From Candidatus Saccharimonadota bacterium (GTDB taxonomy: Bacteria; Patescibacteriota; Saccharimonadia; Saccharimonadales; Saccharimonadaceae), in assembly GCA_017537745.1 (NCBI GenBank), contig JAFYKF010000011.1:1-64000 (forward strand): 64,000 nt of DNA, given 5' to 3'. Positions 33,245 to 49,191 of the stretch are shown here, piece by piece. Every line of letters starts with the position of its first letter. The stretch's first letter is position 1. Under the pieces are notes generated by a model. That model was not told the DNA's origin. It did no database searches and saw nothing but the letters and a program-made list of their open reading frames with translations. A program made the translations under genes and the position numbers.

Positions 33245-36064
33245 CTAAATATCCGCCACACAACGAACGGAATCGCCATAATACTTTCGATCCGTATTGT
33301 ATGTATTGGAAACACAAGTTGCAAAATTAAATCTATAGGCACTATGTTCCCAAAGTGTAGTTGAAGACCAAAGATATGCATTATTACCAGATCTTGTTCC
33401 ATTGTAGATTTGCCCACCATGTACTCCATAAAATGGCGCATCGAGATAAGAATCGTAGATTTCACAATTGGTACCGTTGGGGCCAGTATTCCAACTATCC
33501 TGCAAAGCGGTAAATTCATCAATCTTCGGTAATCTCCAACCAGCTGGACAAATATCTGAAGGAGCATCAGTCTGCGACGCCAAATCCTGTCCACCAGTCC
33601 CCGCAGTTGCAGCCACGAATGAATAATAACTATAACAACCTAAAGTTTGCGTATTATTATTACAATTTGTATTTCCAGAATTATAAACAAAAGCTTTATA
33701 AGTCCCACCGTTCAAATCATTAAACCCAGTTATGCTTGAAGCTGGCAAAGTATAGTTAGATGTCACATGAGAAAGCGATGGAGTCACCGTAGTTCCGCCA
33801 GCTAAATTCAAATTTTTTGTCATCCAGCACAATCCAACAAGTTTAGTTGTACCATAAACCTGGCCATCGCGTGCATCAGTAAGATTATTACCGCAAGTCG
33901 AAGCAGTAACTTTTTGCATACAACTAGCAGACGAAGCACATTGCCCAGGCTTACCAGTAAGTGTAATTGTGGCAGACCCAGCAACCGTATAGGTAGTAGA
34001 CAACGTGCTGGCACTTCCAAACGAACCAGCTGTGGCAGACCAAGATTGGAAATTATAATCCGTTGGGAAAGTACCAGAAATACTATAATTACCGCAAGCG
34101 ATACTTAACGTTTGATTATTTGTTTTAGTGTTATTATTCAAAGTAATATTTGTCGCATCGACAGTTTTAAATGTAATTGTTTGGGCAATATTGCTGGCGG
34201 TTGACGAAGCAGTAACGGTAGCATTAGATTTTGGCATAGTGTAGGTTGAGGATGCACCAGCCGCTGGGGCAGTACCAGCAGTAGCAGTCCAAGTGGGAGT
34301 AGCATAAGTAATACAAGTTGTATTAGCCGCTTTGGTTACACCAACAGTCACGCTTTCTCCCCATTTTTTACTACCACCACCGGTTGCACCGGATGTATTG
34401 GCGCCTGCAGTAACGGTTAGAGTGTAGGTATTTCTGTAGAGACTTACGCTCAGCGTTTGAGTGGATGTGACGTTATTGACTGTCATCGTACCAGCAGAAC
34501 CATTAGCGCCGTTAGCACTTCCCTTGTAGTCGGTTACCGTCTTAGAATAGGAGCAGGAGCCACCGTACAATATAGTTTCCGAACCATCTGCTGTATAAGA
34601 AGTTGGGAATGAGCCATCAGCATTTTCTAGCCTATATTGCTTATTGCAAGTGACGGGATTTCTATCTACACTTACAGTTTGGTTTATGTCAGCCGTAATA
34701 GTGGTACTATAGCTAGCAGCTTTATAAGTAGCATCGGCAGCTCTAGACCAAGCACAGGTCTCGCCGTAACGCAAGGTGGAATTAGTACCAGTTACAGCGG
34801 TAGCGTAAGAGCCGTTCGCATTTTGAAGTTGGTACCTAATGAGACAAGTAAAAGTGTTCCTATATAAATCTAGCGAAACCGTAATACCATCCACACTATT
34901 CATGACGCCAGAAGTAGTGGCAGCGCTATTGTTGGTAGCATTGGCAGAACCTTTGTAATTAGCAACCGTCTTCGAATACGAACAAGTAGCACCATATTTT
35001 ATTTGTTCAGTACCATCTGCGACATATTCACCCCAAGTGCCATCGGCATTTTGGAGTCTATATTGCTTGGTACAAGTATAACTATTGGCACTCCACATTG
35101 CATATAGATAATATGTATCTGGCGAAGTACCAGTAGCGTCAATACCAAAAGATTGCCCAGCTTCAAATTGGTTGGTAGCAGCATTACCGCAAACATCTAC
35201 CCCATCCGTAGTAGTGGTATTGGTCGAGCTAGAAGTACCCCTGCACCAACCAATAAAAGTATACCCTGTTCTTTCTGGGGCAGAAGCAAGAGTTACGCTT
35301 GCAGCAGTAGTACCCTGTGAAATAGTTCCACCCTGTGGATTCGGGCTAGGCATACCAGTAATGGTAGTAACATTTGCATTCTTGCTATAACTAATACTAT
35401 AAGTTACTGGGTTAGCGACATATTCAACCACAACGGCAGAGTTAGTATAAGTGCCAGTCGGGGTAGTAAAATCTGTTTTAATCCCAAGCCCCACCGTGTA
35501 ATTATTAGCCGTGGCATTAGCAGCTGAAGTCTCATCCATGATGAAACCAGTCGTAGAAGCCGGATAATAATTCATAGTATTATTAGCACTATTATATTTA
35601 CTTGGCAAAATACCCCAAGTATTGGTAGCAAAATTATCCGCTGTAATGCCAGCAGTAGAGATAGTTGATATACTATCTGTACCATTAGACAAAGACGTCG
35701 CGCCGTTATCGTCTACCTTCAAACTCACAGTGTACCCAGTAGCATTATTAGTACTAATACTAAAAGACGCGTTAGTGCCATCATTAGCGCTAGAATTAAA
35801 TGTACCACTAGGATTATCTACATTTAACACAACCGAAGCAGTATTGCTAGTACTATTAAAAGCAAGTGTAGACGGAACTGGATCTTTGGTAGTAGCCTCC
35901 GTGTTTGGAAGAGCAAAATAGACCGGAGACAAAATCGAAATAATCAGAGCGAATAGCAAAACAGTTGACACGCATCCAAAAACACCGCACCTACGATTTC
36001 TTCGTATATGCGACGAAATACCACGTCGCTTCAACAAAAAACGTTCTCTAAACAACCTTCCCAT
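33245..36064 (-). CDS. Secreted repeat protein ending in a FISUMP domain
   Basis: 939 residues, Ser/Thr/Asn-rich. A long basic N-terminus (~1-25) precedes a signal helix (~30-50). A WGILPS-containing beta domain follows (~65-218), then an InlB-like segment (~220-325, ending LYAMW), three tandem ~70-residue Cys repeats (~329-548: YRLQNADG, YGATCSYSKT, YKGSAN, LYRNT), and a glycine-rich beta section. From about 715 to the end is a FISUMP (Fibrobacter succinogenes major paralogous) domain with GLCWMTKNLNLAGG and DICPAGWRLPKIDE. There is no sortase motif. Likely a surface adhesin or structural protein; the ligand is unknown. Confidence 0.88.
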   Translation of the reverse strand: MGRLFRERFLLKRRGISSHIRRNRRCGVFGCVSTVLLFALIISILSPVYFALPNTEATTKDPVPSTLAFNSTSNTASVVLNVDNPSGTFNSSANDGTNASFSISTNNATGYTVSLKVDDNGATSLSNGTDSISTISTAGITADNFATNTWGILPSKYNSANNTMNYYPASTTGFIMDETSAANATANNYTVGLGIKTDFTTPTGTYTNSAVVVEYVANPVTYSISYSKNANVTTITGMPSPNPQGGTISQGTTAASVTLASAPERTGYTFIGWCRGTSSSTNTTTTDGVDVCGNAATNQFEAGQSFGIDATGTSPDTYYLYAMWSANSYTCTKQYRLQNADGTWGEYVADGTEQIKYGATCSYSKTVANYKGSANATNNSAATTSGVMNSVDGITVSLDLYRNTFTCLIRYQLQNANGSYATAVTGTNSTLRYGETCAWSRAADATYKAASYSTTITADINQTVSVDRNPVTCNKQYRLENADGSFPTSYTADGSETILYGGSCSYSKTVTDYKGSANGANGSAGTMTVNNVTSTQTLSVSLYRNTYTLTVTAGANTSGATGGGSKKWGESVTVGVTKAANTTCITYATPTWTATAGTAPAAGASSTYTMPKSNATVTASSTASNIAQTITFKTVDATNITLNNNTKTNNQTLSIACGNYSISGTFPTDYNFQSWSATAGSFGSASTLSTTYTVAGSATITLTGKPGQCASSASCMQKVTASTCGNNLTDARDGQVYGTTKLVGLCWMTKNLNLAGGTTVTPSLSHVTSNYTLPASSITGFNDLNGGTYKAFVYNSGNTNCNNNTQTLGCYSYYSFVAATAGTGGQDLASQTDAPSDICPAGWRLPKIDEFTALQDSWNTGPNGTNCEIYDSYLDAPFYGVHGGQIYNGTRSGNNAYLWSSTTLWEHSAYRFNFATCVSNTYNTDRKYYGDSVRCVADI

Positions 36065-36203
36065 TAATATTTGTTTTTAATGTATGTAGACCTTTTCTAC
36101 CTACAAGTTTAGCATAAACATTTCAAAAAAACAAGACTTTTTTCCCAATCCAGCAAAACCTCGCCGCTACTCTTTTTAACAGATTATGTTATAATACATG
36201 TAA

Positions 36204-36290
36204 GCCCGCTTGGCGGAATTGGTAGACGCGCTAGCTTCAGGTGCTAGTGGCAGTAATGCTGTGAGAGTTCAAATCTCTCAGTGGGCACCA
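36204..36290 (+). tRNA. tRNA-Leu (anticodon CAG)
   Basis: Cloverleaf with acceptor GCCCGCT/AGTGGGC, anticodon loop TTCAGGT, a long variable arm as in class II tRNAs, and an encoded CCA. TGT-TATAAT (36190-36195) ends 8 nt before G1, so the primary transcript should have at most about one extra 5' nucleotide. Confidence 0.97.
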
Positions 36291-36320
36291 AAAATTATCC
36301 CGCAAGGGTGTTTTTTATTA

Positions 36321-37172
36321 CTATAAATACATCTTCTTCCGCTTATGTATTTTTACTAGCCTCACAATCGCCGCCACGAATAACGCAATTGTAATTCCTA
36401 CCAAAAACATAAACCAAATCGGACAAATCAACACATCCCGGCTTTCCACCGACGTCACACCATTATAATATATTGTCTGCTCAATATTCACTACGCCCAA
36501 AAATGGCAAGTCCACCACATTCCGCCGAATATATCGTTGTGTCTCCGGCATCACAATGTCTACATATACTCCGCTGTTCTCGTCCGTAGGCAAAATTGTC
36601 TCACCGCTAAACACATTTGTCACCTTAATTCCAGTCTTTACTTCTTCAAACACGTTACCATTATTATCTAGTAACGCCCCCACCATTACCACCGGAGTAT
36701 CCGAAAAAGACGGAATGTCATTACTCAGTATCGAAGCTTCACGCCGCACTTCGCCCTCAATATCTGCATAGATAATACTTGCCATCTCAAAAATATTTTC
36801 CATCATCATCCCACCCTGCACCTCAGCATCTTTGTCCTGAGTTACCACAATGGTTGCACTCTGTGCTCCAGCTGGAGCATTTTCTGGTACGGTAATTTTA
36901 AAATTCACCACCGCCACCTCGTTCGGCGCCAACGTTCCCTTGTCGTTTTCAAGTTCAATCCAACCAGCAATCTGGTTATAAAAAGAATTGGTCACCAAAT
37001 CCACATCGTAATCCTCTCCCACCACACCATATGGCGCAACACTCACTACATAGCTAAAATTACTTGTCGAATTGGCCGGATTCACCACCTTTATCGACCC
37101 CTCAAAAACCTCACCGGGCTTCAAATAGAAATGCTGATTCATCGGTGTAATTAAAAAAGCATCTTCTCGCAT
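36321..37172 (-). CDS. Ig-like (DUF916/COG1470-type) protein with C-terminal membrane anchor
   Basis: 283 residues. Two beta-sandwich-like domains: FYLKPGEVFEGSIKVVNP near the N-terminus, with GTLAPNEVAVVNFKITVPENAPAG, resembles the domain found in WxL-binding proteins. A membrane helix lies at ~248-268 followed by a basic tail RLVKIHKRKK, which implies that the bulk lies outside. No N-terminal signal peptide is present although GGAGGA and a TATAAT promoter lie right upstream and an in-frame TGA two codons before the ATG excludes extension. Function unknown. Confidence 0.8.
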   Translation of the reverse strand: MREDAFLITPMNQHFYLKPGEVFEGSIKVVNPANSTSNFSYVVSVAPYGVVGEDYDVDLVTNSFYNQIAGWIELENDKGTLAPNEVAVVNFKITVPENAPAGAQSATIVVTQDKDAEVQGGMMMENIFEMASIIYADIEGEVRREASILSNDIPSFSDTPVVMVGALLDNNGNVFEEVKTGIKVTNVFSGETILPTDENSGVYVDIVMPETQRYIRRNVVDLPFLGVVNIEQTIYYNGVTSVESRDVLICPIWFMFLVGITIALFVAAIVRLVKIHKRKKMYL

Positions 37173-37249
37173 TCGTCACTCCTCCAATTTCTCTAATTAT
37201 AACACAAAACTAAAAACAACAACCGCTGAAGCAAAACTTTCAAATCACA

Positions 37250-38818
37250 CTACAAACGAACACAACGAATATAGGCCCCGCTGTACCGGTAGTAACCGTC
37301 GCCACTTAGCCTACCATTGTATACTAGCCGTCTACGAAGCGTGGTATTTTGTGCCGATGTAGACCACCAAAATCCGTTGCCGGTATTATGCGATGAGCCA
37401 TCGTAGTAGTCGCCACCAGCGACAGGGGAGAATTTGCGAATCAAAGTTTCAGACGTAGACGATAGACTATCAATAGAACCGGCAACAGCATCACCATGGC
37501 TCGGTAAACGCCATCCAGCTGGACAAATGTCCTCTGTAGCCTCCGTAGTATTTGAATCACCAACAATCGTTTTAGCCGAAGCGGCCGCATAATTATACCA
37601 CACGCCATTAGTAGTATTACCAGAATCATGGCAGTATGGGATGAAATAGCTATTACTAACCGTCCAATCTTCCTCGCAAACATCTACATTGTCATAAGTA
37701 CTAAAGTTAGAATATTGCTTATTCACCGTGCCAGTAATCCTGAGGTTTTGAGTCATCCAACAAGCCCCCTCAATATATCGAATCGTATAGTCATTTCCAT
37801 CCCGCCTATCATACACAGTATACGGATTTTCACTCGCCACCGTCTGGCACATCGAAGCCGTCATATCTTGAATGTACTTCGACGCCCACTGTGCATATAA
37901 TGTCACTGTTCCACCTGCGCTAGCCAGATTTGTCACAGACTGTCCAGTATAGTACTTGTAGCCACTCCCATCAGCTGCAGTATTCCAAGTTGCAAACTGA
38001 TTCTCTGCTACCGGTACTGGTGGTGTAAATCCATTAGCTAGAACCACTGTTGCCCTATCCACACACACTGTTTGTGAATCCATATTTCCAAACCCGCCAT
38101 TGCTATCATAATTAATCGTATAAGTTCCCACGCACGGAGTCTCCGTCGAGTTAGCCGGATGTACTAATACATATTTAACCTTCCCATTATAAGTGTCCGC
38201 CGCTTGCGTGCTAGAAACAAATCCTGCAAACGTAATCTTAAATTTTGATCCAGCATCATTCGTCGTGGTATTATTCGCAAAACTCACCACCTTAGTGTAT
38301 TCACCCGGCACAGTATGATAGTCTTCATACCCAGTCGCAATCGTCGGTGCCACAGTATTATCTACTGGCGTCAACCGCATCGCCCAGTTTGAAGTGCCGC
38401 CAGATGTCGCCGTACCAGTCGCAATCGTCCGTCCCGAACTTTGCCCCAACATATCATTACGCCCCAGCTCATTATTCGTAAATCCCGCCGCATAAACCGC
38501 ATAACCGTTTGCATCGTTACAAACCGTCGTAATTGTCGTTTCACCAATTTCAGACTTATAAACACCAGGAGCAATATCAGATTCATGAGCCGTATCAGTG
38601 TCTGAGCTCATCGAGCAAGATGATGATACTGTAAATGAAGTTTGTATTACCGCCTCAGTATCAGCATGTGTCAAAGGCATTACAAGTAGTCGCACAGAAA
38701 TCAGTGCAAAAACAAACGTCATTACCGCACCAAGACACAAAAGCACCGCCCCAAGCTTTGCTTCTTTAATTTCCAATCCCCCATTTTCATAAAACTTTCT
38801 ATTTTTCATATGACCCAT
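37250..38818 (-). CDS. FISUMP-domain secreted protein, tandem paralogue 1
   Basis: 522 residues. Signal helix ~22-50 with likely cleavage after LTHA. The N-terminal domain (~55-225) has NGYAVYAAGFTNNELGRNDMLG and TSNWAMRLTP. An InlB B-repeat lies at ~228-315 (YTINYDSNGGFG to TLYAQW). One FISUMP domain runs ~318-522 with GACWMTQNLRI and EDICPAGWRLPS and ends IRCVRL. Cysteines are regularly placed and may form disulfides. The start could also be an in-frame ATG 3 codons later. The upstream region shares the TATAATGGTTATGTA block with its paralogues. Confidence 0.87.
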   Translation of the reverse strand: MGHMKNRKFYENGGLEIKEAKLGAVLLCLGAVMTFVFALISVRLLVMPLTHADTEAVIQTSFTVSSSCSMSSDTDTAHESDIAPGVYKSEIGETTITTVCNDANGYAVYAAGFTNNELGRNDMLGQSSGRTIATGTATSGGTSNWAMRLTPVDNTVAPTIATGYEDYHTVPGEYTKVVSFANNTTTNDAGSKFKITFAGFVSSTQAADTYNGKVKYVLVHPANSTETPCVGTYTINYDSNGGFGNMDSQTVCVDRATVVLANGFTPPVPVAENQFATWNTAADGSGYKYYTGQSVTNLASAGGTVTLYAQWASKYIQDMTASMCQTVASENPYTVYDRRDGNDYTIRYIEGACWMTQNLRITGTVNKQYSNFSTYDNVDVCEEDWTVSNSYFIPYCHDSGNTTNGVWYNYAAASAKTIVGDSNTTEATEDICPAGWRLPSHGDAVAGSIDSLSSTSETLIRKFSPVAGGDYYDGSSHNTGNGFWWSTSAQNTTLRRRLVYNGRLSGDGYYRYSGAYIRCVRL

Positions 38819-38879
38819 TAAAACCTATGACCTTATTACATAACCATTATAGCACAATTAAGCATCATCCAATAGTTTT

Positions 38880-41114
38880 TTACAAATGAACGCAACGAAT
38901 CCGAAGGCCATCAGAACGAAAACCATAATCAATGACCAAACCATTATTATTGTTAAAATAATTTAAGCTCCATGAATGGCCAGCACCGTATGGCGCAGAT
39001 TGCCACCATACCCCCTGAGTATTAGCATTATTTAACAAACCATTACGATAATAGCCACCTACTTCCGGCAAAAACATTGTCACAGACGTAGCTGAAGTAG
39101 AAGTTAAACTATTAATTGAACCCGGACTATTATTTGCATCATAACCCGGCAAATGCCAACCGGCTGGACAAATATCTTCCGTTGCCACAGCACTAGAATC
39201 CCCAGTAATAGTTTTAGCTGAAGCCGACGCAAAATTATACCACACGCCATCCTCAATCTCTTCAGGAACATGGCACCTTAGTTCGGTGGTACTATTACCA
39301 GAAGTTAAATCACCTTCACACACATTTACACTACTATAAGTACTAAAATTAGAATCCTGCGAACCAACCACCCCAGCTATTCTCAAGTTTTGCGTCATCC
39401 ATAGTGCACCTTGTATTTTCGCAACCGTATATTCGTTACCATCTCGTCTATCCCTAAGTAAAGCCGTATCCCCTTCCGCCATACTTGCCACATACCCCGA
39501 AGTAATATTCTGCATATATGTCAAATCTTCATTCGGAACAGGTACCCGGGTACAACGAATACTAAGCCCGCGAATTCGGTTATTGCTACCAGTATTCAAA
39601 CTACCACCGACGTAAGCCAATTGGTAACGACTCGTATGGAGGCTCGCCGTAGCGGACCACCAATACCCATCACCGCCATAAAGCGATGAACCATCACCGT
39701 AGAGGCCACCTGTGGCAGGAGAAAATATTAGAATCGAAGTTGCGGATGTAGATGATAAACTATTAATAGAACCAGCTGCGTTAGACGTATCATAGCTTGG
39801 TAAACTCCAGCCAGCAGGACAGATATCTTCTGTAGCCACAGCAGTATTAGAACTACCGGTAATAGTTTTTGCACTAGCTGCGGCATAATTATACCATACA
39901 CCGTTGGTGGCATTACCAGAATCATGGCATCGTGAAATATCATTGCTATTACCAGCCGTGAGATCCTCTTCGCAAACATTTACACTATTATAAGTACTAA
40001 AGTTTGAGTATTGTGCATTTACCGTACCAGTAATTCTTAAGTTCTGCGTCATCCAGCAAGCACCCTCGATAAACCGCACCGTATAATCATTCCCGTCTCG
40101 TCTATCATATACCGTAAATGGTCTTTCGCTAGCTACCACTTGGCAAGTCGAACCTGTAAAATCTTGGATGTATTTCGGTACCCATTGTGCATATAATGTC
40201 ACCGTTTCGCCCGCATTAGCAAGGTTCATTACGGATTGCCCAGCATAATAAGTATATCCACTTCCATCTACCTCTGTATTCCATGCCGCAAATTGGTTCT
40301 CCGTTATCGACGCCGGCGCAGTAAACCCATTTGGCAGTAGCCCAATCGCCCTATCCACGCAAGCCGTTTGCGACTCCATGCTTCCACTTCCACCATTGCG
40401 ATTATAAATAATGGTGTAAGTGTCGCCACATGGCGTATTGGTCGTGTCTGCGGGATGCACTAAAGTATATTTTACCTTACCCACATAAGTATCCGGAGTC
40501 TGCAAACTCGCCACATAAGTCGCATAAGTTGTTTTAAATTGCGAACCAGACGCATTCGTCATTGTGCTATCTGCATAACTCACCACCTTAGTATAAGTAT
40601 CTGGTACCGTATGATAATCATCATAACCAGTCGCAATCGTCGGCTTCACACTATTATCAACTGGCGTTAATTTCATCGCCCAAGCCGAAGTTGTCCCAGA
40701 CGTAGCCGTACCAGTCGCAATCGTCCGTCCAGTAGTCTGCCCCAGCATATCATTCCGCCCAAATTCATTGTTCGTAAAACCAACCGCATAAATAGCATAG
40801 CCATTTGTATCATTACACGCCACCGTAATCGTCGTCTCGCCAATCTCATCTTCATACGTACTAGCCGTCACCGTCGCCTCGTGCACCGTATCTACCACAG
40901 ACGTCATCTCGCAGGAAGACGTCACCGTTACGGCAGTCTGCGTTAGTACCGTCTGATCAGCATAAGACTTTGAAGCCATTAACAAACTCAGCGAGACAAT
41001 CGTCAGCACAAAACCCGTCAGCGCCATAACACTTAGCACCGCGAAACTATACCTCGCTTTTTTCAAACCAAGCATTTTTCTACTCGCACCAAACTCCTGA
41101 TTCATTTCATTCAT
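38880..41114 (-). CDS. FISUMP-domain secreted protein, tandem paralogue 2 (two FISUMP domains)
   Basis: 744 residues. Signal helix ~24-50, cleavage likely after KSYA. The layout is that of its neighbour (NGYAIYAVGFTNNEFGRND domain, InlB repeat ending LYAQW), followed by two FISUMP domains (~325-515 and ~520-744) joined by a VPVPNEDLTYMQ linker. The first FISUMP domain and linker are almost identical to those in the paralogue at 42738-44969; the C-terminal half differs. It ends IRCVHL with no anchor signal. Likely surface-exposed. Confidence 0.87.
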   Translation of the reverse strand: MNEMNQEFGASRKMLGLKKARYSFAVLSVMALTGFVLTIVSLSLLMASKSYADQTVLTQTAVTVTSSCEMTSVVDTVHEATVTASTYEDEIGETTITVACNDTNGYAIYAVGFTNNEFGRNDMLGQTTGRTIATGTATSGTTSAWAMKLTPVDNSVKPTIATGYDDYHTVPDTYTKVVSYADSTMTNASGSQFKTTYATYVASLQTPDTYVGKVKYTLVHPADTTNTPCGDTYTIIYNRNGGSGSMESQTACVDRAIGLLPNGFTAPASITENQFAAWNTEVDGSGYTYYAGQSVMNLANAGETVTLYAQWVPKYIQDFTGSTCQVVASERPFTVYDRRDGNDYTVRFIEGACWMTQNLRITGTVNAQYSNFSTYNSVNVCEEDLTAGNSNDISRCHDSGNATNGVWYNYAAASAKTITGSSNTAVATEDICPAGWSLPSYDTSNAAGSINSLSSTSATSILIFSPATGGLYGDGSSLYGGDGYWWSATASLHTSRYQLAYVGGSLNTGSNNRIRGLSIRCTRVPVPNEDLTYMQNITSGYVASMAEGDTALLRDRRDGNEYTVAKIQGALWMTQNLRIAGVVGSQDSNFSTYSSVNVCEGDLTSGNSTTELRCHVPEEIEDGVWYNFASASAKTITGDSSAVATEDICPAGWHLPGYDANNSPGSINSLTSTSATSVTMFLPEVGGYYRNGLLNNANTQGVWWQSAPYGAGHSWSLNYFNNNNGLVIDYGFRSDGLRIRCVHL
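39400..40400 (-). repeat. Near-identical block shared with 43260-44260
   Basis: Coding sequence of the linker, first FISUMP domain and InlB repeat in paralogue 2 aligns without gaps (offset about 3860) to the same part of paralogue 4. Long stretches are identical at DNA level, unlike the flanking parts of the two genes. This fits recent duplication or gene conversion. Confidence 0.8.
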
Positions 41115-41180
41115 ATAGTATTACCTACACAAAAACACTTCCCATTACATAACCATTATAGCACAATTATATATTTTAAA

Positions 41181-42710
41181 CTATAAGCGAACGCAACGGA
41201 TAAAATCACCATTGTATATAGAATGGCCGCCGATAGTGTAAGAGTCAGTAGTACTTAAATTACTACCATCATAAACTAAATGCCAATGTCTTCCATAATT
41301 GCCATAAGTATTTGACCACCAATACCCATTACCACTACGCACGATTGCTCCATTATCGTAAAAACCACCAACAATAGGAGCAAATTTCGCAGTAGACGTA
41401 CTCGTAGTCGAGGATAAACTATTAATCGAACCTACGGTATTATCAACGTCATAGCCTGGCAGGCTCCATCCAGCTGGACAAATATCCTCTGTGGCTGCAT
41501 CCACATTCGAATCCGTGACAATAGTCTTAGCTGTAGCAGCAGGATAATTATACCAAACACCATCAGTGGTATTACCAGAATCATGACACCGAGGCTCCAC
41601 AAAACTATTGCCAGTCGTCAAGTCCCCTTCACAAACATCTATAATATTATAAGTACTGAAATTCGAATATTGTGCACTAACCATACCGGTAATACGCAAA
41701 TTTTGCGTCATCCAACAGGCACCCTCTATATAACGAATAGTGTAGTCGCTTCCATCACGCTTATCATATACGACAAACGGACCATCAGTGGTTGCTACTC
41801 TACACATCGTAGAAGTCATGTCTTGCATATACCTCGGCACCCACTGCGCATAAAGCGTCACCACGCCGTCTGCGCCAACAAGATTCGCCACGCTCTGCCC
41901 CGCACGATACGTATACCCACCACCATCCGCCGCTGTATTCCATGCCGCAAACCGATATTCAGTCGTTGGCGTTGGTGGCGTAAATCCATTAGCCAAAACT
42001 ACCGTTGCCCTATCCACACATACTGTTTGCGAATCCATACTCCCAGATCCACCATTATTATTGTAATTAATTGTGTATGTGCCAACAGTACACGGGGTTT
42101 CCGTTGAATTAGCCGGGTGCACTAAAGTGTATCTCACTTTTCCCAAATACGTATCCGCCGCCTGCGCGCTCGCCACAAACGATGCAAAAGTCACTTTAAA
42201 TTTCGATCCAGCATCATTTGCCATTGTACTATTTGCAAAACTCACTACTTTAGTATATTCATCCGGTATCGTATGATAAGCGTCATAACCAGTCGCAATT
42301 GTCGGCGCTACACTATTATCAACCGCCGTTAGTTGCATCGCCCAATTTGAAGTGTCACCAGAAGTCGCTGTACCAGTTGCAATCGTCCGCCCCGAATTTT
42401 GACCCAACATATCATTTCGGCCTATTTCATTATTAGTATAACCATCTGCATAAATCGCATAGCCATTCGCATCATTGCAAATTGTCGTAATCGTCGTTTC
42501 ACCAATTCCGCTCCGATAAATACCCGGAGCAACTTCCGCCGTGTGTGCCGTATCAGTGTCCGAACTCATTTCGCACGACGACGACACAATCACTTCTGCT
42601 TGCGTTGACGCATTATCGGCAGAAACAGTTGGCATCACAAGTAAACTTGCACAAATCACAGTCAAAAATAACATTCCCACTGCGCCAAAACACAAAACAA
42701 AACTCTTCAT
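41181..42710 (-). CDS. FISUMP-domain secreted protein, tandem paralogue 3
   Basis: 509 residues with a single FISUMP domain (~300-509; GACWMTQNLRI, EDICPAGWSLPG, ends IRCVRL). It has the same N-terminal beta domain and InlB repeat as the neighbours and a signal peptide cleaved probably after TVSA. TGT-TATAAT lies 8 nt before the ATG. The protein is closest in layout to the 522-residue paralogue. Confidence 0.87.
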   Translation of the reverse strand: MKSFVLCFGAVGMLFLTVICASLLVMPTVSADNASTQAEVIVSSSCEMSSDTDTAHTAEVAPGIYRSGIGETTITTICNDANGYAIYADGYTNNEIGRNDMLGQNSGRTIATGTATSGDTSNWAMQLTAVDNSVAPTIATGYDAYHTIPDEYTKVVSFANSTMANDAGSKFKVTFASFVASAQAADTYLGKVRYTLVHPANSTETPCTVGTYTINYNNNGGSGSMDSQTVCVDRATVVLANGFTPPTPTTEYRFAAWNTAADGGGYTYRAGQSVANLVGADGVVTLYAQWVPRYMQDMTSTMCRVATTDGPFVVYDKRDGSDYTIRYIEGACWMTQNLRITGMVSAQYSNFSTYNIIDVCEGDLTTGNSFVEPRCHDSGNTTDGVWYNYPAATAKTIVTDSNVDAATEDICPAGWSLPGYDVDNTVGSINSLSSTTSTSTAKFAPIVGGFYDNGAIVRSGNGYWWSNTYGNYGRHWHLVYDGSNLSTTDSYTIGGHSIYNGDFIRCVRL

Positions 42711-42737
42711 ACATAACCATTATAACACATTATTTTT

Positions 42738-44969
42738 CTACAAATGCACACAACGAACATAATTACCGTCACTCCGAGCACCGCCACTACCATCATTCAA
42801 ACTACTACCAGTATAATGTAAACCATAACGGGTTGTAGTACCACTTGCATCGGTGGACCACCAATACCCCCAATTAGTATAGCCCGGCGCTCCACCATAA
42901 TAACCACCGCCAGCAACTGGAGAAAACAAAGACATCGAAACCGCAGACGTAGAAGACAAACTATTAACAGAGCCCGCTGCCTTAGTGGCACTATCGTAAC
43001 TCGGCAAACTCCAACCGGCCGGACAGATATCTTCTGTGGCTTTATCATTATTGGAACCACCCGTAATAGTTTTTGCACTAGCAGCTGCATAGTTGTACCA
43101 AGCACCATTATCTGTATTTCCAGAATCATGACAGCGTGGAACGTCATTGCTACTACCTGCAGTCAAATCCTCTTCACACACATTTACATTACCATAAGTA
43201 CTGAAGTTAGAATATTGTGCATTCACTGTACCAGTAATTCTTAAGTTCTGCGTCATCCATAGTGCACCTTGTATTTTCGCAACCGTATATTCGTTACCAT
43301 CTCGTCTATCCCTAAGTAAAACCGTATCCCCTTCCGCCATACTCGCCACATATCCAGAAGTAATATCCTGCATATATGTCAAATCCTCATTCGGAACAGG
43401 AACCCGGATACAGCGAATACTAAGCCCACGAATTCTGTTATTACTACCAGTACTCAAGCTACTACCATCGTAAGCCAATTGGTAGCGACTCGTAGGGAGG
43501 CTCGCCGTAGCGGACCACCAAAACCCACTACCGCCATAAAGCGATGAACCATCACCGTAAAGGCCGCCTGCAGCAGGAGAAAATATTAGAATCGAAGTTG
43601 CGGATGTAGATGATAGACTATTAATAGAACCAGCTGCATTAGACGTATCATAGCTTGGCAAACTCCAACCAGCAGGACAGATATCTTCCGTAGCCAACGT
43701 AGTATTAGAACTGGTGAGAATTGTCTTAGCTGAGGCAGCAGCAAAATTATACCACACACCATCAGTAGTATTGCCAGAATCATGACAATACGGAATATCA
43801 AAGACATTACCAGCAGTCAAATCATTCTCGCAAACATTCACGCTATTATAAGTACTAAAGTTTGAATATTGTGCATTCACCGTACCAGTAATTCTTAAGT
43901 TTTGCGTCATCCAACAAGCACCCTCGATAAAGCGTACTGTATAATCATTCCCATCTCGCCTATCATATACCGTAAATGGTCTTTCACTAGCTACCACTTG
44001 GCAAGTCGAACCTGTAAAATCTTGAATGTATTTTGGTGCCCATTGCGCATATAATGTCACCGTTCCACCCGCATTAGCAAGGTTCATTACGGATTGCCCA
44101 GCATAATAAGTATATCCACTTCCGTCTACCTCAGTATTCCACGCTGCAAACTGTTTCTCCGTTATCGATGCTGGCGCAGTAAACCCATTTGGCAGTAGAC
44201 CAATCGCCCTATCCACACAAACCGTTTGCGATTCCATGCTTCCAGTCCCACCATTACGATTGTATATAATCGTATAAGTACTAGCACACGGCGTGTCAGT
44301 AGTATCCGCCGGATGCACCAAAGTGTATTTCACCTTGCCGCTATAAGTATCTGGCGTCTGTGAGCTCGCCACAAATGCCGCATAAGTCGTCTTAAATTTA
44401 GACCCATCCGGATTTTCCATTGTGCTGTCCGTGTAGCTCGCTACCTTAGTATAATCATTTGGTACTGTATGATAGTCATCATACCCCGTCTCAATCGAAG
44501 GCGACACGCTATTATCAACCGGTGTCAACTTCATCGCCCAGGCGGAAGTTGTTCCAGACGTAGCCGTACCGGTCGCAATCGTTCGTCCAGTAGTCTGCCC
44601 CAGCATATCGTTTCGCCCAAACTCATTGTTCGTAAACCCAGTCGCATATATTGCATAACCATTCGTGTCATTGCAAACTACGGTAATCGTCGTCTCACCA
44701 ATTTCGTCTTCGTACGTACTAGCAGTCACCGTTGTTTCATGCGCCGTATCTACCACCGAACTCATCTCACAAGACGACGTCACCGTAATCAATGCTTCCT
44801 CAGTAATAGTTTTATTCGCAAACACGCTAGAGCTACTTAGTAATCTAAAAGAAAGTATCGTAAAAAGTAACGCCATAGTTGCACTTATGCACAAAACAGC
44901 AGCACCAAACCTTACCCCCATCCAAGCAGTATGCGCCGTTTTTTCTTTACATCTCATCAAAACCCTCAT
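42738..44969 (-). CDS. FISUMP-domain secreted protein, tandem paralogue 4 (two FISUMP domains)
   Basis: 743 residues with the two-FISUMP layout of the 744-residue protein. Signal helix ~19-46, cleavage likely after SVFA. A second in-frame ATG 4 codons in (44957) has GAGGG directly upstream and may be the true start. The final ~50 residues carry a different surface pattern from the other copies. It begins 49 nt after grpE on the same strand, in the place where dnaK often lies, with no clear terminator between. Confidence 0.86.
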   Translation of the reverse strand: MRVLMRCKEKTAHTAWMGVRFGAAVLCISATMALLFTILSFRLLSSSSVFANKTITEEALITVTSSCEMSSVVDTAHETTVTASTYEDEIGETTITVVCNDTNGYAIYATGFTNNEFGRNDMLGQTTGRTIATGTATSGTTSAWAMKLTPVDNSVSPSIETGYDDYHTVPNDYTKVASYTDSTMENPDGSKFKTTYAAFVASSQTPDTYSGKVKYTLVHPADTTDTPCASTYTIIYNRNGGTGSMESQTVCVDRAIGLLPNGFTAPASITEKQFAAWNTEVDGSGYTYYAGQSVMNLANAGGTVTLYAQWAPKYIQDFTGSTCQVVASERPFTVYDRRDGNDYTVRFIEGACWMTQNLRITGTVNAQYSNFSTYNSVNVCENDLTAGNVFDIPYCHDSGNTTDGVWYNFAAASAKTILTSSNTTLATEDICPAGWSLPSYDTSNAAGSINSLSSTSATSILIFSPAAGGLYGDGSSLYGGSGFWWSATASLPTSRYQLAYDGSSLSTGSNNRIRGLSIRCIRVPVPNEDLTYMQDITSGYVASMAEGDTVLLRDRRDGNEYTVAKIQGALWMTQNLRITGTVNAQYSNFSTYGNVNVCEEDLTAGSSNDVPRCHDSGNTDNGAWYNYAAASAKTITGGSNNDKATEDICPAGWSLPSYDSATKAAGSVNSLSSTSAVSMSLFSPVAGGGYYGGAPGYTNWGYWWSTDASGTTTRYGLHYTGSSLNDGSGGARSDGNYVRCVHL

Positions 44970-46391: not shown

Positions 46392-47015
46392 ATGGAAGAA
46401 AAATTTAATGTAATTAAATCCTGGCTCGGCACAGGCTCTATCAATATCTTTGGCCTACCAATGTCTGGCAAAGACACTCAGGGCATCCGTCTCGCCGAGG
46501 CACTCGGTGCCAAATTCCTATCTTCTGGCCTCATCATCCGTGCCATGGAGCAAGAGAATCGCAAACATTATTCGGAGCATGGCGCCCTTATCCCTACCGA
46601 CGTCTTCTACAAATGGGTACTCCCCTACTTCAAACGCGCAGACCTAAAACAATTCCCACTTATTCTCTCTTCTATTGGCCGTTGGTTTGGCGAAGAAGAT
46701 TCTGTCATGTCTGCCGCCGCTGCCGCCGGCCACGAAATCAAAGCCGTCATTCTCCTCAACGTCTCCGAAGCCGACGTCGAAAATCGTTTTACTGCTGCCA
46801 AAGCCATCGGTGATCGCGGCGAGCGTAAAGACGACAAAGACATCACCACCTTCCGCACTCGCCTTGAAGAATTCCGCACCAAAACCTTACCAGTTCTTCA
46901 ACATTACAAACAGCTTAATCTCCTCATCAATGTCAACGGCGACCAAACCCGTGAAGCAGTTTTTAACGAACTCGTCGAAGCACTCTACGCAGTAGCTTCA
47001 CAATCTCGCGCCTAA
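46392..47015 (+). CDS. Adenylate kinase-like nucleotide kinase
   Basis: 207 residues. The P-loop GLPMSGKDTQG at 21-31 is a variant of the adenylate kinase GxPGxGKGTQ, followed by ISSGxxxR-like FLSSGLIIRAMEQE and a late VSEADVENRF/GERKDDKD lid-core region typical of AdK. Substitution at the usually conserved glycines (Met and Asp in the loop) makes AMP kinase activity likely but not certain. TGT-TATAAT ends 7 nt before the ATG. The 3' end overlaps the opposite gene by 53 nt. Confidence 0.82.
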   Translation: MEEKFNVIKSWLGTGSINIFGLPMSGKDTQGIRLAEALGAKFLSSGLIIRAMEQENRKHYSEHGALIPTDVFYKWVLPYFKRADLKQFPLILSSIGRWFGEEDSVMSAAAAAGHEIKAVILLNVSEADVENRFTAAKAIGDRGERKDDKDITTFRTRLEEFRTKTLPVLQHYKQLNLLINVNGDQTREAVFNELVEALYAVASQSRA

Positions 47016-48420
47016 ACTCATATATTATATATATAATACCTGCGACTAGCACACCGATTATTGCGTATACCGCCACAAAAGAAGTTTCTTCCTTATATTC
47101 ATCTTCGCTCAGCGCATAAGTGGTACCGTTATTTTCAATAATCTTCCGGCATCTACCAGTTTCTTCATTTAAATAGTACCCCTCCTTGCATGTTTTAGCC
47201 ACCGCTACTTCAATTTTTCGGCACCGCCCAGTCAGAGGATTTAAATAATACCCATCTTCACATGTTTTTTCCGCCGCCACCGTCGCTACTTTTACACAAT
47301 TTCCCGTTGCCTCATTTATTACTTTTCCCTCTTCGCAAGTTTTATACTCCTGATAATTATTTGCTTCACCTCGCGTCACTGCATAAGTCACCCGCCAAAT
47401 CTCTTTCCCTTGTTCATCGTACCCCACAAAAGCATACGACGCGCCCTTCCGCTGTCCATTTGGATATTCCAATTTATCCACCACTGCACCATTCACATCT
47501 ATAATTTCCAATATGTTTGAATTAGTTGGATTCTTTGTCAAGCTAAAATCACTCGCATTTCGCACATAATATTCTTCCGCCTTCAAAATTCCGCTTAGCT
47601 GATAATATTTATTTTTATATTTCAACGTACACCCATCCAGCAAAATCTGTTCCGACCCACTATTATATAGCTCCACAAATTGTTCATCCTGTGTTTCCGC
47701 ATAATAACTTAATATCTCCGAAAAAACCAACCCGGCACATTGTCCATTCAACGTATCAGCAGCCTCGCCCGCATCAACTCCACCCGCCCCGCCACTATTA
47801 TCTATCACCGCATCCGCATGATAAACTGGTTCATATTCAGTCAAATGCTCAAACTCACCAGTTTCCAAATTCCGCACCAAAATTGTCGGGCTACTTGATT
47901 TAAAAGCCTTTTTACACCCTTCCTTTCCCGTCCAACACACCGCATCCAACACTTCATCATCTTTTTTAAGCGTTAGCCCACCCTGAAAAGCTAACGTCTT
48001 TGTATAGTTAAAGTTTGCCAGCTCCGCTTCTTCACTGCTAGCAAGCCTTAAAATAATATTCTCACTAGTAGTCGTAAGGTGCTCGGAAAATTTCACCAAT
48101 TCAGATTCATTTCCGCTTGAATTCGTATAGCTTAGACTAAGACTAGCGAGCGAAATCACGTCTTGGGGATGCTCTTTGCGAAAGCCAATTTCAATCATTT
48201 CCCCAACATTACTTTTACCGTCCACAGTATATCCAGGATTAATTGCCTTGATAAATATTTCTGGAATATTTTCATTTATCACTATCTCCTCTGCCCCACC
48301 ATCCACTATTTCCTCACCCACATCGCTTTCCGCATACACAACTTCGCCCACAACACCACCAACTAACCCACCCAACATCACCCCCAACATTATTAATAAT
48401 AATTTATAAAAGTTTTTCAT
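46963..48420 (-). CDS. Lamin-tail-domain surface protein with Cys repeats
   Basis: 485 residues from MKNFYKLLL. Signal peptide ~1-29, ending VVYA. A lamin-tail (LTD) domain lies at ~235-350 (LVFSEILSYYAETQDEQFVELYN, DVNGAVVDKLEYPNG). Three short Cys motifs follow (CEEGKVINEATGNC, CEDGYYLNPLTGRC, CKEGYYLNEETGRC). A C-terminal membrane helix (~448-466) has a very basic tail. So it is exported and anchored at its C-terminus. LTD domains occur on surface proteins and some nucleases; no nuclease motif is seen here. Confidence 0.85.
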   Translation of the reverse strand: MKNFYKLLLIMLGVMLGGLVGGVVGEVVYAESDVGEEIVDGGAEEIVINENIPEIFIKAINPGYTVDGKSNVGEMIEIGFRKEHPQDVISLASLSLSYTNSSGNESELVKFSEHLTTTSENIILRLASSEEAELANFNYTKTLAFQGGLTLKKDDEVLDAVCWTGKEGCKKAFKSSSPTILVRNLETGEFEHLTEYEPVYHADAVIDNSGGAGGVDAGEAADTLNGQCAGLVFSEILSYYAETQDEQFVELYNSGSEQILLDGCTLKYKNKYYQLSGILKAEEYYVRNASDFSLTKNPTNSNILEIIDVNGAVVDKLEYPNGQRKGASYAFVGYDEQGKEIWRVTYAVTRGEANNYQEYKTCEEGKVINEATGNCVKVATVAAEKTCEDGYYLNPLTGRCRKIEVAVAKTCKEGYYLNEETGRCRKIIENNGTTYALSEDEYKEETSFVAVYAIIGVLVAGIIYIIYEFRREIVKLLRRVLRRVR

Positions 48421-48492
48421 AGCTTCGTAGCCTAGCAAACACTTCAAAATATTGCAACCCCCTACCCCATTTTTATATGATATAATATAAGC

Positions 48493-49191
48493 ATGAGCTA
48501 TATATTCCCTGTTATTTTCTTTATCGTGTCTATGGTAATTTTCTGTTTTTTGCAAATCCCTTCCGGCGTTTTTTCAATGTTTTATCATTTTCGCCTTGCC
48601 AAAACTTCCAAAAAGCAAGCCGACGATGCCACACTCAGCTTCATTCTTGGCGTCGAAATTTTTAACACAATTATGTGGCTCCTTACCTATATCATCATTT
48701 TCTGTTGTCAATCTAGTTCTATCTCACCATTCTTCCTTTGGCTCATGACTGGCATTTGCCTAGCCGACGCAGTTGCCGCTTTCTTCTTTTATTTCCGCAA
48801 AAGCAAATCCTCAACTGCAACATTCATTTCTCGTCGCGTCGCCAAAAGTCTTGCCTCTCGCGCCAAAACCGTTAGCTCCCGCTCCGACGCCATCACGCTT
48901 GGCTTTGTTTCTTGTCTACCGGAACTTCTCTTTACACTCCCACTTTACATCACTTGTTCGGCCTTCCTCCAAAGCGAAAACGCCTTGCCTCGCGCCATTC
49001 TCATTATCGTCGCCGTAATCATCGCTGTAGTTCCACTTTTCGTCATCCGCACCTTCTTCCGCACCGACCACAACCTCGCCGAAATTCAACGTCTCCGTGT
49101 CAAACTCAAACCTCATTTCCGCATCATCCTTTCTCTCGCCTACATCGCCGCCACTATTACTTTAATGAATCTCGCCATCATTAATATGTAA
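48493..49191 (+). CDS. Polytopic membrane protein, unknown function
   Basis: Not recognised. 232 residues with about six hydrophobic segments (near 4-26, 50-72, 80-98, 142-160, 168-186 and 211-230) and basic loops. TGA-TATAAT (48481-48486) ends 6 nt before the ATG, a clear start. Divergent from the LTD protein; the next small gene begins 8 nt after its stop with AAGGAG, so they form a pair. Confidence 0.8.
   Translation: MSYIFPVIFFIVSMVIFCFLQIPSGVFSMFYHFRLAKTSKKQADDATLSFILGVEIFNTIMWLLTYIIIFCCQSSSISPFFLWLMTGICLADAVAAFFFYFRKSKSSTATFISRRVAKSLASRAKTVSSRSDAITLGFVSCLPELLFTLPLYITCSAFLQSENALPRAILIIVAVIIAVVPLFVIRTFFRTDHNLAEIQRLRVKLKPHFRIILSLAYIAATITLMNLAIINM

Follow-up and report, generated by a model that had tools for sequence, protein, structure and literature searches.

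The window, by which we mean the whole 64,000-nucleotide stretch of DNA analysed here, lies on contig 10 of a genome of 838,126 bases (11 contigs, 98.23% complete) whose source is a tiny, probably parasitic bacterium. In the ORF list, positions 33245 to 44969 indeed hold five FISUMP-domain ORFs, all on the minus strand. The initial annotation took these for a single array of one common plan, which proved accurate for four of them; these are tandem genes at 37250-44969 on the minus strand, with six FISUMP domains altogether, and they are linked by direct repeats of up to 300 nt. The fifth, P0001, is split off by a non-FISUMP gene (36321-37172) and an opposite-strand tRNA, and it departs from the plan in its N-terminal domain (NATGYTV) and in extra repeats. 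On the minus strand, the four array genes lie between grpE/hrcA and a carbamate-kinase-like gene (names read from the translations, without a family search); beyond the array, the order is P0002, then the tRNA, then P0001. The features are as follows (DGR, diversity-generating retroelement).

42738..44969, minus strand: P0006, array gene, 743 aa; leader, NGYAIYA domain, InlB-type repeat, two FISUMP domains
43401..43586, minus strand: DGR variable-region equivalent, first FISUMP domain of P0006
42741..42929, minus strand: DGR variable-region equivalent, second FISUMP domain of P0006
42710..42724, minus strand: TATAATGGTTATGTA, promoter-like, before P0005
41181..42710, minus strand: P0005, array gene, 509 aa; plan as P0006 but one FISUMP domain
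41184..41387, minus strand: DGR variable-region equivalent of P0005
41146..41160, minus strand: TATAATGGTTATGTA, promoter-like, before P0004
38880..41114, minus strand: P0004, array gene, 744 aa; plan as P0006, two FISUMP domains
39543..39728, minus strand: DGR variable-region equivalent, first FISUMP domain of P0004
38883..39074, minus strand: DGR variable-region equivalent, second FISUMP domain of P0004
38837..38851, minus strand: TATAATGGTTATGTA, promoter-like, before P0003
37250..38818, minus strand: P0003, array gene, 522 aa; plan as P0006 but one FISUMP domain
37253..37435, minus strand: DGR variable-region equivalent of P0003
36321..37172, minus strand: P0002, 283 aa, non-FISUMP neighbour with a C-terminal membrane helix and without a signal peptide
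36204-36287, strand opposite to the array: tRNA between P0001 and P0002
33245..36064, minus strand: P0001, 939 aa, secreted FISUMP protein outside the tandem array; other N-terminal domain, extra repeats

Judged by their sequences, P0004 and P0006 are a recent duplicate pair. Elsewhere in the window, 46963-48555 (minus strand) encodes a secreted-looking protein with cysteine repeats and a C-terminal membrane helix, whose match to a lamin-tail domain (32.5 bits) is slightly below the cut-off of 34.3.

A shared upstream block at four starts had been taken as a sign of joint expression. TATAATGGTTATGTA is present in exact form at three of the four array starts, and the fourth carries TATCATGGTAGTATA. 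The block looks like a general extended -10 promoter: TGnTATAATGG occurs in 7 copies in the window, against 0.3 expected from shuffling, and precedes other genes too. Because the motif is generic in the window, it is no marker of the array; a special promoter common to the array was therefore ruled out, and the proposal of joint expression through the block was dropped.

FISUMP proteins, their relatives and their neighbour

The four array proteins share one plan, namely a hydrophobic leader, an NGYA[IV]YA domain, an InlB/Flg_new repeat and one or two FISUMP domains. Their leaders carry an A-x-A-like cleavage site (assessed by eye), and no C-terminal anchor was seen when the four translations were inspected; secretion is predicted from the leader, and release instead of surface display is conceivable. 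The endings IRCVRL and IRCVHL, which the initial annotation gave for all five FISUMP proteins, apply to three (IRCVRL twice, IRCVHL once), and the other two end in VRCVHL and VRCVADI.

PF09603 and TIGR02145 matched all five proteins of 33245-44969, and P0001, P0003, P0004 and P0006 passed the curated cut-off in at least one library. P0005 scored under both cut-offs (27.0 versus 33.9 bits; 31.3 versus 41.65), and in its FISUMP domain it shares 52-61% identity with the window's five other array-type domains. The 838-kb genome contains 29 FISUMP matches, in keeping with the proposed expanded family of secreted, leader-bearing proteins; the 11.7 kb described as a large investment is thus only part of the total. 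Two very long FISUMP ORFs were observed in this genome, L072 (contig C8) and L141 (contig C10), with open frames of 2108 and 2458 codons, in which a local FISUMP profile matched four and six times. Within the genus the domain is the rule, being present in 115 of 118 sampled congeners, and outside it is patchy (64/198 sampled genomes of the family). Two AlphaFold2 predictions had mean pLDDT values of 35 and 45, and a PDB profile search with the FISUMP alignment returned a single match at chance level. By analogy with the DGR-target literature and with the similarity between DUF1566 and Fib_succ_major reported in the parts of PMC4159848 and PMC8144416 used here, the tips may adopt a C-type-lectin fold. 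The term "FISUMP" itself was not found in the literature searched.

The nearest relative found was a sister species, G287, with an HrcA 96% identical to that of the window's genome. At the array site, it has two array genes with one FISUMP domain each, against four genes and six domains in the window, so that the anticipated variation in copy number and end sequences holds at the species level. The P0001 orthologue in the sister is 1309 aa long and has a diverged C-terminus. Between its P0001 and P0002 orthologues, G287 also has a gene with an ADP-ribosyltransferase exoenzyme domain (L070:7166-8122, plus strand; PF03496, 44.6 bits versus a cut-off of 23.4), which is absent from that place in the window. 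A scan of database contigs for the locus yielded no relative besides the sister's contig, and an array adjoining grpE was seen in these two genomes only: among 20 further hrcA loci that we fetched, none had a FISUMP gene directly after grpE (grpE was not found in L093), and nine had one elsewhere in the stretch.

P0002 belongs to a beta-rich family found in 115/118 congeners. Relatives were taken from loci L009-L038, L069, L071 and L078-L084. All 40 members checked have a C-terminal membrane helix and a basic tail, and 39 of the 40 lack a hydrophobic N-terminus, with an upstream open frame too short for a signal peptide; one longer paralogue carries a leader. A role as a WxL-type partner (WxL interacting proteins) was considered and rejected, PF06030 scoring 15.3 bits, below its cut-off of 27.3. 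P0002-like genes adjoin FISUMP genes at some loci; since these loci were chosen for P0002 itself, and since none of 20 further RT loci had a P0002-like gene, no partnership between P0002 and FISUMP proteins is claimed.

DGRs in congeners and the search for them in the genome of the window

Fib_succ_major is recorded as a DGR target domain in the part of PMC4159848 used here, and a match to RVT_1 was present in 69 of the 118 congeners. We examined 34 congener reverse transcriptase (RT) loci, chosen by closeness to P0002 or to FISUMP matches, or by RT score. A template/variable pair was found in 30 of them, in the 3′ end of a FISUMP gene, with the near-identical partner near the RT; every RT locus in which a FISUMP gene was found is among these 30, and 30/34 is a biased rate given how the loci were chosen. 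The four loci without such a pair were L086, L089, L090 and L125. DGR mutagenesis is recognised by mismatches at template adenines. Among the 573 mismatches of the processed pairs, 558 fell at template adenines (a count that is without L081, a fragment at a contig end, and to which L112, trimmed to nothing, does not contribute; in the pair scan, 21 of the 23 mismatches of L112 were at A), and DGR mutagenesis is therefore indicated at the FISUMP ends of congeners.

The template is antisense and lies just 3′ of the RT in 29/30 loci, and in 25 of the 30 the RT and the target share a strand, the template alone being inverted. Same-strand template scans had given few pairs, and the antisense rule emerged only from a scan of both strands. 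Its sole exception is at L123 (G300), a 17-kb contig with two RTs, where one element's template is on the RT strand. In most maps inspected, an accessory ORF of about 270-330 aa adjoins the RT. The RTs matched RVT_1, a PHROG reverse transcriptase and, as the only PDB match, 8ub7, and 33/35 RT ORFs contain IGxxxSQ, which we take to be typical of DGR RTs. With RT, template, variable repeat and adenine-specific mismatches all present, these 30 congener loci are DGRs. A DGR of ordinary layout, in which a single strand carries variable repeat, template and RT, was seen at L086:2065-4458 (G208), a few kb from hrcA; 26 of its 28 mismatches are at template A, and its target gene has no FISUMP match.

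The same components were sought in the window's genome (G000) and in G287. RVT_1 and RT searches detected no reverse transcriptase in either, the control genomes being positive; the accessory protein (query P0008) had no match in either genome and matches in three controls; and no template repeat was found in the two. A profile of the tip (the last ~62 residues) matched 25 times in the window's genome, where every match lies in a long open frame of 404 codons or more, and 22 times in G287, where these frames are of 431 codons or more. In the DGR-bearing genomes G089 and G260, it had 8 and 7 matches, some in frames of 67-118 codons, and two of these short-frame matches are the known templates (G089, C10:3121-3303; G260, C5:116467-116646). 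At 98.23% completeness an RT could lie in a gap; the sister is likewise without one. The genome of the window thus retains many target domains, and the machinery of a complete DGR is absent from it.

Variation and origin of the array tips

In line with the end-sequence variation that the initial annotation proposed as a check, the C-termini of the array proteins diverge much more than the remaining parts. In 14 of 15 pairs of paralogues or species, tip identity is 31-54%, whereas the N-terminal, InlB and upstream FISUMP parts reach 65-88%; the exception is P0004/P0006, at 86-94%. The second FISUMP domain of P0006 has 94-97% DNA identity to the second domain of P0004 over its first ~100 bp and then drifts nearer to the first domain of P0004. 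This mosaic favours conversion between domains.

The alignment comprised 27 congener templates together with the variable repeat of each, and 24 segments from the two genomes without a DGR. Pairs no longer than 150 nt were omitted, as were L133 and L134 (array-type, from the window's genome) and L137, whose end motif was unmatched. Columns in which 50% or more of the templates read AAY, 18 in all, were defined as DGR-mutable. Among the six window tips, mean entropy was 1.90 bits at these columns and 0.96 at 40 others (P = 1.4e-6), and among 12 array-type tips it was 2.55 bits against 1.33 at 41 others (P = 3.6e-7). The array therefore varies at the very columns that congener DGRs mutate, and it belongs to a DGR target family.

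When AAC or AAT is mutated by a DGR, the third base stays C or T. At degenerate codons, the variable repeats of congeners had NNY in 172/188 cases at mutable columns and in 260/405 at other variable columns; for the window array, the counts were 48/55 and 51/84 (column permutation, P = 0.009; 0.02 without the duplicate tip). The bias was missing in four other array-type tips of the same genome (17/27, P = 0.74) and was below significance in the sister's two tips (10/13, P = 0.13) and among 12 further segments from the DGR-less genomes (72/98, P = 0.15); five sets were tested with P values uncorrected for their number, and significance was reached by the window set, complete or reduced, and by no other. 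The NNY bias gives modest support to a descent of the window tips from DGR output.

Whether the lineage lost a DGR was approached through gene order and a tree. At L069 in the window's genome, a FISUMP gene and a P0002-like gene stand without an RT, and the flanking gene order equals that of the DGR-bearing congener loci L083 and L084. In an HrcA tree of 30 genomes, most of it poorly resolved, the window's genome and G287 form a pair (support 97/94), and RT presence is scattered, with 10 changes against a shuffled mean of about 10. DGR turnover in the genus looks frequent, and the window lineage may have lost a DGR or never had one. A clade-level loss was not upheld, given the poor resolution. 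Higher FISUMP counts in DGR-less genomes were also considered: a first look at genomes at least 90% complete gave medians of 24 in 33 RT-less and 17 in 47 RT-bearing genomes (P = 0.045), and across all 118 genomes the comparison was weak (P = 0.20), with P values that ignore kinship of the genomes.

It is unlikely, in our estimate, that no DGR ever acted on the array. On that view, FISUMP tips would be exposed loops on which diversifying selection acts in every lineage, the adenines of DGR templates would fall in these loops, and the shared columns would reflect the fold and no common mutator; the array would have grown by ordinary duplication. The scattered RT presence, the occurrence of Fib_succ_major in RT-less congeners as well and the missing NNY bias in the other tips of this genome all accord with such an origin, but the bias in the window array itself and the flanking gene order that L069 shares with L083 and L084 argue against it.

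A probable fixed repertoire and its relation to known systems

Taken together, the array is probably a fixed, duplicated and recombining repertoire of secreted binding proteins whose FISUMP tips are of the DGR variable-region type. In congeners, an error-prone RT copies the antisense template 3′ of its own gene, and the adenine-mutated copy replaces the end of a FISUMP gene, its last ~60 residues, by mutagenic retrohoming. The lineage of the window would once have carried a DGR and then lost it, and would now maintain variation through gene duplication, conversion between domains and ordinary mutation on which selection acts. To go by the sequence, the leader would export each array protein; the N-terminal and InlB-type parts would form a stem and the FISUMP tip the variable face. 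Different tips may then bind different ligands, most plausibly surface structures of a host bacterium. Attachment to such a host, already suggested by the initial annotation, is plausible by analogy and is sharpened by the DGR link.

That the proteins have no part in host recognition and are instead secreted structural or polymer-binding proteins, acting for instance on the cell's own wall or on environmental glycans, seems doubtful. This would suit a leader without a visible C-terminal anchor in the four array proteins, and the literature searched offers no established function for FISUMP proteins; hypervariable tips would, however, fit changing ligands better than a constant one, and the part of PMC8144416 used here assigns cellular DGR targets mostly to cell-particle interaction. 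Most improbable by far is that a DGR still acts on the array in trans, its RT being carried by a mobile element or by a stretch of the genome absent from the assembly: an assembly of 11 contigs at 98.23% completeness leaves room for such an RT and the tips resemble DGR output, but RT, accessory protein and template are missing from both sister species, and in congeners the RT adjoins the FISUMP gene and the template adjoins the RT.

The fixed repertoire may be one side of a wider pattern, which we propose tentatively and with less confidence than the repertoire itself: lineages of the genus might alternate between a small number of FISUMP genes that a DGR with an antisense template rewrites and, after its loss, a fixed multigene set that spreads DGR-made tips by duplication and conversion. 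The array would then be preserved DGR output, a germline repertoire. Type IV pili are the main studied candidates for host recognition in episymbiotic Saccharibacteria, according to the part of PMC12206443 used here, and the FISUMP family provides a concrete second candidate: a secreted family that occurs nearly genus-wide, with DGR-driven diversification in many species and a fixed array in two or more. DGR-bearing species and their DGR-less sister species offer a natural experiment on host range and tip turnover.

The array sequences match the FISUMP/Fib_succ_major family (TIGR02145, PF09603; related to DUF1566/Lcl_C, PF07603), and they add NGYAIYA and InlB-type parts to what characterizes that family in general. 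They fall in the same domain family as the DGR variable proteins with Fib_succ_major, DUF1566 or FGE-sulfatase domains that are described in the portion of PMC4159848 used here. The likeness extends to a variation limited to the C-terminal part and, in the congener templates, to AAY-coded sites around conserved W, G and RC; in contrast to those systems, the window has neither RT, accessory gene nor template, and its targets are tandem paralogues, two of them with two FISUMP domains.

CPR DGRs are already known, and DGRs in Saccharibacteria as such are not claimed as new. Like the clade-2 DGRs of Patescibacteria/CPR (Roux et al. 2021, PMC8144416), as far as the text used here describes them, those of the congeners are cellular CPR DGRs with C-terminal variable regions. 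Clade-2 targets, in the same text, usually have no recognisable transmembrane or other conserved domain, whereas leaders and FISUMP domains are present in the congener targets, and the template lies antisense 3′ of the RT, a comparison based on targets and layout; a recognisable secreted target is thereby assigned to these CPR DGRs. Finally, the congener loci share opposite strands for RT and template with the inverted DGR cassettes of pattern G5 (BMC Genomics 2019, PMC6642488, in the part used here), but differ from them in that 25/30 keep the target on the RT strand and invert only the template.
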